Positions 12,059-14,528 of a stretch of DNA of 64,000 nucleotides are shown one piece after another. The DNA is from Thermotoga caldifontis AZM44c09 (GTDB lineage Bacteria; Thermotogota; Thermotogae; Thermotogales; DSM-5069), in the NCBI RefSeq assembly GCF_000828655.1, contig NZ_AP014509.1:558001-622000 (forward strand). Direction: 5' to 3'. The notes under the pieces are model-generated. The model was not told the DNA's origin, did not search any database, and was given only the letters and a program-made list of their open reading frames with translations. The position numbers were made by a program, and so were the translations under genes. Every line of letters begins with the position of its first letter. The stretch's first letter is position 1.

Positions 12059-13441
12059 ATGAAGTTTGTCGATACCACGCTCAGGGATGGTCATCAATCG
12101 CTCATCGCCACGCGCATGTCTACGAGCGACATGCTCCCCGCGCTCGAGGCGATGGACCAAGTGGGTTTCTATTCGCTCGAGATGTGGGGAGGCGCGACCT
12201 TCGATGTGGCGGTGAGGTTCCTCAACGAAGATCCCTGGGAGCGTTTGCGAAAGATCAGGGAGAAAATCAAAAACGCGAAGCTTCAGATGCTCCTCAGGGG
12301 TCAGAACCTGGTGGGTTACAGGCACTACGCGGACGACACGGTGAGACTCTTCGTGAGAAAGATGGCTGAAAACGGAATGGACATCGTCAGAGTCTTCGAT
12401 GCGCTCAACGACGAACGCAACCTGATGGTGGCCATAGACGAAGCGAAGAAGTGCGGTATGCACGTACAAGGAGCCATTTCTTACACGGTGAGTCCCGTGC
12501 ACACGCTCGAGTACTATCTGGACTACGCTGAAAAGCTCGTCGAACTCGGAGTGGATTCCATCTGTATAAAGGATATGGCGGGCTTGCTCAGCCCCAGGGA
12601 CGCGTACAGGCTGGTGAAGGCACTCAAAGAAAGGTTCGCCCTGCCCGTGGACGTTCATTCGCACTGCACCTGCGGTCTCGCACCACTCAATTACCAGGCT
12701 GCCATCGATGCTGGTGCGGACATCATAGACACGGCACTTTCTCCTTTCGCACTCGGTACTTCCCAGCCACCGTTCGAACCCATCTACTATTCTTTGAGCA
12801 AAGAGGGCCTGCTCCCGCCACCGAAATGGGACCTGCTGGCCTTTTTGAACGAGCACTTCACGAAGGTGAGACAGAAATACGCACAGTACGATGTGAACAT
12901 GACGAGTATAGATTTCCGTGTTCTTCAGGCCCAGGTGCCTGGAGGCATGTATTCGAACATGATAAAGCAGTTGCAGGAACAGAAGATGCTCCACAAACTC
13001 TCTCAGGTGCTCGAGGAAATACCGAGGGTGCAGAAAGATCTGGGTTATCCTCCGTTGGTCACACCAACCAGCCAGATCGTCGGTGTTCAGGCCGTGCTCA
13101 ACGTGCTCACCGGGGAGAGGTACGCGAAGGTGACGCGCGAAGTGAGGGATTACGTGAAGGGTTTGTACGGAAGGCCTCCGGCACCGATCGATCCGGAGCT
13201 TGTTAAAAAGATCCTGGGTGACGAGAAGCCCATAGACGTGAGACCGGGAGAGATCATAGAACCTGAGGTCGAGAAGGCCAGACAGCAGATAGGATTGCTC
13301 GCGAGGAACGATGAAGACCTTCTGATCTACATCATCCTCGGTGAAGTCGGCAAGAAGTTCTTGCAGAAACGGTACTTCGATCAATTGAGGATCGACCTCG
13401 AGCTGGTTAAGGAGTTGGAAGCTCCCGTGCATCCAGTATGA
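12059..13441 (+). CDS. Carboxyltransferase: oxaloacetate decarboxylase alpha / pyruvate carboxylase B-type subunit
   Basis: A 460-residue protein of the biotin-dependent carboxyltransferase family. Motifs include DTTLRDGHQS (N-terminal barrel strand with metal Asp), EMWGGATFDVA, CIKDMAGLLSP (the carbamylated-lysine strand) and DVHSHCTCGLAP (metal histidines). The PYC_OADA domain covers about residues 285-430. There is no C-terminal MKM biotinyl domain, so the carboxyl carrier must be a separate protein not in this window. It would move carboxyl groups between biotin and pyruvate/oxaloacetate in the cytoplasm. AGGAGGTGAG lies 5 bases before the ATG. The next gene overlaps its stop by 4 bases. 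Confidence 0.88.
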   Translation: MKFVDTTLRDGHQSLIATRMSTSDMLPALEAMDQVGFYSLEMWGGATFDVAVRFLNEDPWERLRKIREKIKNAKLQMLLRGQNLVGYRHYADDTVRLFVRKMAENGMDIVRVFDALNDERNLMVAIDEAKKCGMHVQGAISYTVSPVHTLEYYLDYAEKLVELGVDSICIKDMAGLLSPRDAYRLVKALKERFALPVDVHSHCTCGLAPLNYQAAIDAGADIIDTALSPFALGTSQPPFEPIYYSLSKEGLLPPPKWDLLAFLNEHFTKVRQKYAQYDVNMTSIDFRVLQAQVPGGMYSNMIKQLQEQKMLHKLSQVLEEIPRVQKDLGYPPLVTPTSQIVGVQAVLNVLTGERYAKVTREVRDYVKGLYGRPPAPIDPELVKKILGDEKPIDVRPGEIIEPEVEKARQQIGLLARNDEDLLIYIILGEVGKKFLQKRYFDQLRIDLELVKELEAPVHPV

Positions 13442-14250
13442 TCGTAGGTATCGGTGTCGACGTCGTCGATATTGAAAGGATCGATGAAAAGCTTTCGACG
13501 AGGATCCTTGGCGAATTCGAGCTGAGAGAGTTTGAATCCACCACCAACAAGAAACAGTTCTTAGCGTCGCGTTTCGCCGCGAAGGAAGCGTTTTTCAAGG
13601 CGCTCGGCACAGGCGTCAGGGATTTTTCCTTCAAGGACGTGGAAGTGGTACACGACAAGTTTGGAAAACCCGTGCTGCTTTTCCACAGAGATGTGCACTT
13701 CAATTTCGTGCATGTGAGTCTGTCTCACGATAGGGTCGCAATGGCGATGGTCGCGCTCGAGGAGAACGAAGGTCACATCTACATAGCGCTCGGTTCGAAC
13801 CTGGGTGATAGGCTGAAGAACATCGAACGTGCCTGCCATCTGATGGAATCTTCGAACATAAAAATATTGAAAGCTTCACCCATTTATCTGACGAAACCGT
13901 ACGGTTTTGTCGATCAGCCAGATTTTTTCAACTGCGTCGTGGAGGTTCAAACACGACTCAGCCCCTTCCAGTTGCTTGATACGCTTCTCGAGATAGAGAG
14001 AGCCATGGGCAGAGTCAGAGAAAGGAAATGGGGGCCGAGGACGATAGATCTGGACATCATCCTGTATGGAAATCTCGTTCTGAAAACAGAAAAGCTCACG
14101 ATACCCCACTACGATTTGGTCAACAGACAGTTCGTGCTCAGACCACTTTTGGACATCGCCGATGTGGATCACCCACTCGAAGGAAAACTGAGCAGCTTCC
14201 TGAGAGAAGGTGAAGGATGTCAACTGATGACGAGATTCTGGCTCAGTTGA
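13438..14250 (+). CDS. AcpS-FolK fusion: holo-ACP synthase joined to HPPK
   Basis: A single 270-residue frame holds two complete enzymes. Residues 1-108 are 4'-phosphopantetheinyl transferase AcpS (GIGVDVVDIERI with Asp8; RFAAKEAFFKALGTG with Glu50; VSLSHDRVAMAMV). Residues about 113-260 are 6-hydroxymethyl-7,8-dihydropterin pyrophosphokinase FolK (YIALGSNLGDR, ERAMGRVRERKWGPRT, IDLDIILYG, IPHYDLVNRQFVL). A five-residue linker (EENEG) joins them without a stop or internal ribosome site. The first domain activates acyl carrier protein for lipid synthesis and the second makes a folate precursor. The ATG overlaps the stop of the carboxyltransferase gene. All key residues seem intact, so both activities are expected. 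Confidence 0.88.
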   Translation: MIVGIGVDVVDIERIDEKLSTRILGEFELREFESTTNKKQFLASRFAAKEAFFKALGTGVRDFSFKDVEVVHDKFGKPVLLFHRDVHFNFVHVSLSHDRVAMAMVALEENEGHIYIALGSNLGDRLKNIERACHLMESSNIKILKASPIYLTKPYGFVDQPDFFNCVVEVQTRLSPFQLLDTLLEIERAMGRVRERKWGPRTIDLDIILYGNLVLKTEKLTIPHYDLVNRQFVLRPLLDIADVDHPLEGKLSSFLREGEGCQLMTRFWLS

Positions 14251-14528
14251 TGGAAATCGAAGCCGAACTCGACAGAGCGCTGGAACAGGAAGATTTCGAA
14301 CGCATGAACATGCTTTTAGAACAGCGCGAGATGCTGCTCAGGATGCTTTCGAAGATTCCAGAAGAACTCGCAAACAGGATAATCGAAGCTGACAACAGGA
14401 GGATGGAAAAACTGAAAGCCTTCATGGAAGCTATGAAGAATCAGGCGCTTCAAACTCGAATCTCGCAGAACGCTCTGAAAAGTTACTCTCCTCGGCAGAA
14501 CGATCCGAGCTTCGACGAAAGAAAATGA
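14217..14528 (+). CDS. Small helical coiled-coil protein, FliT-like at best
   Basis: A 103-residue, highly charged, almost wholly helical protein (AQLMEIEAELDRALEQEDFERM, broken here; then a second helix ending KAFMEAMKNQ) with a disordered tail. AGGTGAAGG lies just upstream of the ATG, and the gene overlaps the 3' end of the acpS-folK gene by 34 bases in another frame. Size and helix pattern recall FliT-type flagellar chaperones and similar anti-aggregation proteins, but no diagnostic motif is present. Followed by a bidirectional terminator. Confidence 0.65.
   Translation: MSTDDEILAQLMEIEAELDRALEQEDFERMNMLLEQREMLLRMLSKIPEELANRIIEADNRRMEKLKAFMEAMKNQALQTRISQNALKSYSPRQNDPSFDERK

Follow-up and report, generated by a model that had tools for sequence, protein, structure and literature searches.

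AcpS (holo-ACP synthase) activates apo-ACP by attaching to it 4'-phosphopantetheine taken from CoA. HPPK (FolK) transfers pyrophosphate from ATP to 6-hydroxymethyl-7,8-dihydropterin, giving the substrate of FolP. An earlier note on a 64,000-nucleotide stretch of the Thermotoga caldifontis AZM44c09 genome (the window) placed both enzymes in one reading frame. The locus raises the question of whether a single protein really serves both pathways and, if so, how such a fusion arose and why it has persisted.

The acpS-folK gene and its conservation in Thermotogales

The gene (13438..14250, plus strand) is one open reading frame of 270 aa, whose ATG start overlaps the TGA that ends the preceding gene. 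Its AcpS domain, residues 1-110 (13438..13767), matched Pfam PF01648 at residues 4-104 (E 5e-17, 62 bits against a cut-off of 25) and NCBIfam TIGR00516 acpS (78 bits; cut-off 59.8). The HPPK domain is full length, from about residue 113 to 270 (13777..14247), and matched PF01288 at residues 115-241 (E 2e-42, 144 bits against 25.7, profile positions 1-115 of 116) and TIGR01498 folK (157 bits; cut-off 54.1). With both domains above curated cut-offs in one ORF, the proposed fusion was confirmed: a single protein combines AcpS with a complete HPPK. AcpS models stopped at about residue 109-110 and HPPK models began at 113-115, leaving a linker of about five residues, as first described, which reads ENEGH (about residues 109-113; 13762..13776). 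ACPS was the only other Pfam domain beside HPPK, so that the partner is neither FolB nor FolP. A search of the whole T. caldifontis genome (2.01 Mb, one contig, 99.9% complete) returned one AcpS match and one HPPK match, both of them in the fusion gene.

We then compared the catalytic residues, all of which had been reported as kept. The main residues of both enzymes are indeed present. Among the AcpS residues for Mg2+ and CoA, D8 was found in 42/42 alignment rows covering that position, and E50, K54 and H97 in 43/43. The HPPK part carries the catalytic loop KWGPRTIDLD and the equivalents of E. coli D95/D97 (D204/D206), W89 (W198), R82 (R192), R92 (R201), H115 (H224), N55 (N165) and R121 (R230). 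The word "all" was slightly too strong, since E. coli Q74, K85 and R110 are replaced by L, E and K. In the predicted structural model, HPPK residues 111-240 had pLDDT values mostly above 90 and the HPPK part superposed on E. coli HPPK (4m5j) with a TM score of 0.90 of the target; the AcpS part was modelled poorly because a single AcpS homologue was usable in the alignment, and the model was therefore read for its HPPK part only.

To see how far the fusion extends, 103 genomes of the phylum were searched with both families (AcpS and HPPK), and the loci of the order were inspected individually. AcpS and HPPK lay in one ORF in 30/30 genomes with either domain from the family of T. caldifontis itself (f1, n=10) and its sister family (f2, n=20), so that the check proposed in the earlier note, conservation in other Thermotogales, came out in favour of the fusion; the sole genome of these families without matches, G056, is 71% complete. 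The fusion proteins, from many independent assemblies, are 42-74% identical to the T. caldifontis protein (down to 42-49% in f2), and share a junction of near-constant length and form, …VxLEKxxGxIYIGLGSN…. The catalytic residues listed above are invariant across the 30 fusions, D8 lying beyond the end of one contig-edge fragment. Close pairs showed purifying selection on both parts, with dN/dS of 0.05-0.24 for AcpS and 0.09-0.21 for HPPK. Elsewhere in the Thermotogota, acpS and folK were on separate contigs or distant from each other, and never adjacent. One apparent fusion in the distant genome G004 (L058), where a tblastn match ran to residue 162, was rejected: the acpS frame is closed by a stop codon and a DprA-like gene comes next, indicating a chance extension.

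The surroundings of the gene were also compared. Upstream, a pyruvate carboxylase subunit B-like gene (NF010644/PRK14041; 12062..13441, plus strand) overlaps the fusion start with its coding end, and stands end to end with acpS-folK in both f1 and f2. A biotin-carrier-like ORF likewise precedes acpS in G004 (L058:3-188). Downstream, a gene for a charged, helix-rich-looking protein of 103 aa (14217..14528, plus strand), with no Pfam or NCBIfam match, overlaps the 3' end of acpS-folK. This small gene is kept behind acpS in three families: in f1 and f2 it comes after the fusion, and in several genomes of the Thermotoga family (f3) after a tailed acpS.

The tail of Thermotoga-family AcpS and the origin of the fusion

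AcpS of the Thermotoga family is 169-184 aa long, compared with mostly 115-135 aa for the open frames of other families in the phylum. At these loci (L090-L102; for example L096:3831-4337, minus strand), we observed a conserved C-terminal tail of about 60 residues with the look of an internally deleted HPPK. The tail opens in an HPPK-like manner (GGIIV) and continues as …WEIDTxIPPFxLKKxL…RYGNILL, collinear with the fused-HPPK stretch …VVEIDTxLSPFxLLxxLLxIE…LYGNLVL; it has no counterpart of the first loop and helix of HPPK, of the catalytic loop WGPRxIDLD or of the C-terminal third. In an hhalign profile comparison built without a joint alignment of tails and fused HPPKs, the tail scored 30.7 against the fused-HPPK profile over about 33 aligned columns, whereas none of 500 column shuffles exceeded 22.1, and no significant match was found between the tail profile and the separate FolK of the same family. 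The tail is constrained, with dN/dS of 0.08-0.16 in most pairs and 0.44 in one, and therefore probably has a structural role. AcpS of one Thermotoga-family genome agrees over the aligned stretch with PDB 5xum from Thermotoga maritima, whose chain of 169 aa is long enough to include the tail. These comparisons suggest that the tail is probably an eroded HPPK remnant of the fusion, which would explain the extra C-terminal segment of Thermotoga AcpS, the T. maritima structure included.

Because Thermotoga-family AcpS carries this HPPK-like tail, the fusion would predate all three families, and from the sequences it probably arose once, before they split. Alternatively, the fusion may have arisen separately in f1 and f2, with the tail being an unrelated extension. 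Such a course would fit the AcpS tree, which left the branching of the three families unresolved and did not recover f3 as one clade, and the tail itself is short and heavily diverged. Against it, the fused HPPKs form a single group in the HPPK tree (support 88-90), f1 and f2 have the upstream pycB gene and the junction in common, and the tail matched the fused HPPK far above all 500 shuffles with the order of its motifs kept; we therefore regard separate origins as unlikely. The HPPK tree neither showed nor rejected a close kinship of the separate Thermotoga-family FolK with the fused HPPKs (p-AU 0.42), so that this gene may have been acquired from outside or split off from the fusion.

Under the single-origin reading, one fusion in the common ancestor of f1, f2 and f3 would have been followed in f3 by deletion of the HPPK part down to the constrained tail of about 60 residues. 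In some f3 genera, folK is a gene of its own within a PTPS-FolE2-FolP-FolK cluster, where FolE2 is a putative name given by recognition of the sequence; the others are without HPPK and FolP. Folate synthesis in this family would thus have been retained through a separate folK beside folP, or lost along with folP.

Predicted function of the fused enzyme and its probable place in the folate pathway

We consider it highly probable, from the sequence comparisons above, that the gene encodes a bifunctional AcpS-HPPK enzyme that derives from one fusion and whose HPPK part was later deleted in f3. The N-terminal domain would load apo-ACP with 4'-phosphopantetheine from CoA, and the C-terminal domain would pyrophosphorylate 6-hydroxymethyl-7,8-dihydropterin from ATP for use by FolP; because the genome has no other copy of either domain, one protein would serve both pathways. 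AcpS enzymes are homotrimers with active sites between the subunits, and the assembly is therefore likely to be an AcpS trimer bearing three HPPK domains, each presumably acting on its own. Channelling would be unexpected, as the two pathways have no intermediate in common. The fusion may have been fixed by chance and would then have been hard to lose, there being no second copy of either half. Since it joins two single-copy enzymes of such unconnected pathways and holds across two families, it makes a clean case for asking why fusions of this sort persist.

A different possibility is that the two domains dock and depend on or regulate each other, for instance through adenine nucleotides (CoA/PAP and ATP/AMP), tying fatty-acid synthesis to folate synthesis. 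If this were true, the constrained HPPK-derived tail of Thermotoga AcpS would be a docking surface that AcpS still needs. We think this unlikely, and there is no evidence for a link between the fatty-acid-carrier and folate pathways.

It could also be asked whether the single ORF yields two proteins in cells, through an internal start before HPPK or proteolysis at the linker, which is short and variable; in T. caldifontis, ATG triplets lie 8 and 10 codons ahead of the conserved Gly112. We examined every ATG, GTG and TTG in the junction stretch of about 29 codons in the 30 fusion genes and found no conserved internal start codon; six genes had none at all. A ribosome-binding motif preceded a junction start codon in only 3/30 fusions (L075, L079 and L080). 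As the junction starts are not conserved and mostly lack such a motif, internal initiation is unlikely to be a general source of free HPPK, and we judge a two-protein outcome overall to be quite improbable. A single bifunctional chain remains the preferred reading.

We further studied whether the fused HPPK stands in a working folate pathway. A survey of folate synthesis (PMC1971073) uses FolK and FolP as its signature genes for the de novo route; the same survey mentions a FolB-FolK fusion, and Thermotoga is absent from its text. In 41 Thermotogales genomes of 90% or greater completeness, HPPK and full FolP went together: 35/41 had the pair, 6/41 lacked both, and no genome was discordant (Fisher p 2e-7, taking genomes as independent). 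The six genomes without HPPK had only weak PF00809 matches, in long methionine-synthase-like ORFs. FolP was present in every f1 and f2 genome at least 90% complete; in T. caldifontis, folP is a separate gene about 690 kb from the fusion. The co-occurrence of HPPK with FolP, together with the sole HPPK copy, indicates that the fused domain is very likely a working folate enzyme, and, on these sequence data, the one HPPK on which a live pathway in f1 and f2 would depend. Annotation by best hit can mask one function of such a protein, so that reconstructions of folate or ACP metabolism in Thermotogales may show a missing step.

FolB was absent from all 45 Thermotogales genomes in a search of the whole order. 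A FolB bypass is known for some PTPS proteins, and a PTPS homologue was found in the complete folate-making genomes except G075 and was absent from the six without HPPK and FolP. By analogy, PTPS may be a candidate stand-in for the missing FolB, supplying 6-hydroxymethyl-dihydropterin. The six genomes lacking HPPK, FolP and PTPS (G086, G087, G088, G097, G098 and G099) belong to the f3 genera g10, g11 and g14, which, judged by gene content, are probably folate auxotrophs. FolP of f1 was itself unusual in length: the ORF of about 400 residues (L129:1438-2625, minus strand) is extended at its N-terminus by about 120 residues that are missing from f2 and f3 FolP, which are mostly about 280 residues long.

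The apparent remnant in f3 also bears on whether the HPPK part of f1 and f2 has ceased to be a folate enzyme and become a structural appendage of AcpS. Thermotoga-family AcpS retains a constrained HPPK-derived tail in which catalysis is impossible, which gives this idea a precedent. Within f1 and f2, however, no HPPK catalytic residue varies, the T. caldifontis genome has no second HPPK, and FolP accompanies the fusion in all those near-complete genomes, making loss of function very improbable.

Finally, separate genes in relatives, which the earlier note would have read as a sign of sequencing error, do exist in f3 and in other families of the phylum; they are no such sign here, because the frame is conserved in independent assemblies and f3 carries a probable HPPK remnant. 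That sequencing or assembly merged two neighbouring genes is extremely improbable even though acpS and folK are separate elsewhere in the phylum, given that 30 genomes, assembled separately in many cases, share the in-frame junction, and given the purifying selection, the invariant catalytic residues and the fact that the two genes are never adjacent in other Thermotogota.

Comparison with known fusions and stand-alone enzymes

Beyond the phylum, no AcpS-HPPK fusion appeared among the matches listed (at least 80 loci, from a profile scan of genome contigs), where the N-terminal extensions of HPPK were FolB, FolP or unassigned; the known range of the fusion is a lower bound, because the view outside the phylum consists of those listed matches. 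An Aquificaceae HPPK ORF (L135:1570-2484, plus strand) has an N-terminal part of 145 residues matching no Pfam family. A search of open-licence papers, subscription journals being outside its scope, found none describing an AcpS-FolK fusion, and our searches returned FolB and FolP as FolK partners, in agreement with the suggestion that these are the known ones and AcpS is not. To our knowledge, AcpS-FolK proteins have gone unremarked, although sequence databases surely hold them.

The closest parallels are bifunctional folate enzymes. FolB-FolK of Streptococcus pneumoniae (SulD, PDB 2cg8) likewise has a C-terminal HPPK in a two-enzyme chain (HPPK match E 4e-31), but its partner is the preceding enzyme of the folate pathway, whereas in T. 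caldifontis the partner is AcpS of CoA and fatty-acid metabolism, and FolB is missing from the entire order. FolK-FolP proteins (yeast FOL1, 2bmb; Arabidopsis, 7mpy; Francisella, 4pzv) also hold HPPK within a bifunctional chain. There, HPPK is N-terminal and joined to the next enzyme of the pathway, in contrast to T. caldifontis with its distant, separate folP.

Among stand-alone enzymes, T. maritima AcpS (5xum, 169 aa; NF011255/PRK14661) is the nearest solved AcpS, with a match that reaches beyond the AcpS domain of the fusion protein as far as residue 133; it is a probable positional orthologue and bears the putative remnant tail. Unlike the fusion protein, it lacks the HPPK catalytic loop, and genomes of the T. 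maritima type have a separate folK beside folP (L104). AcpS of Bacillus subtilis (1f7l) and HPPK of E. coli (1dy3) resemble the two halves in family, size and catalytic residues, but are two separate proteins. By these comparisons the enzyme is of a known kind, an HPPK fusion, and what is new is its partner, AcpS.
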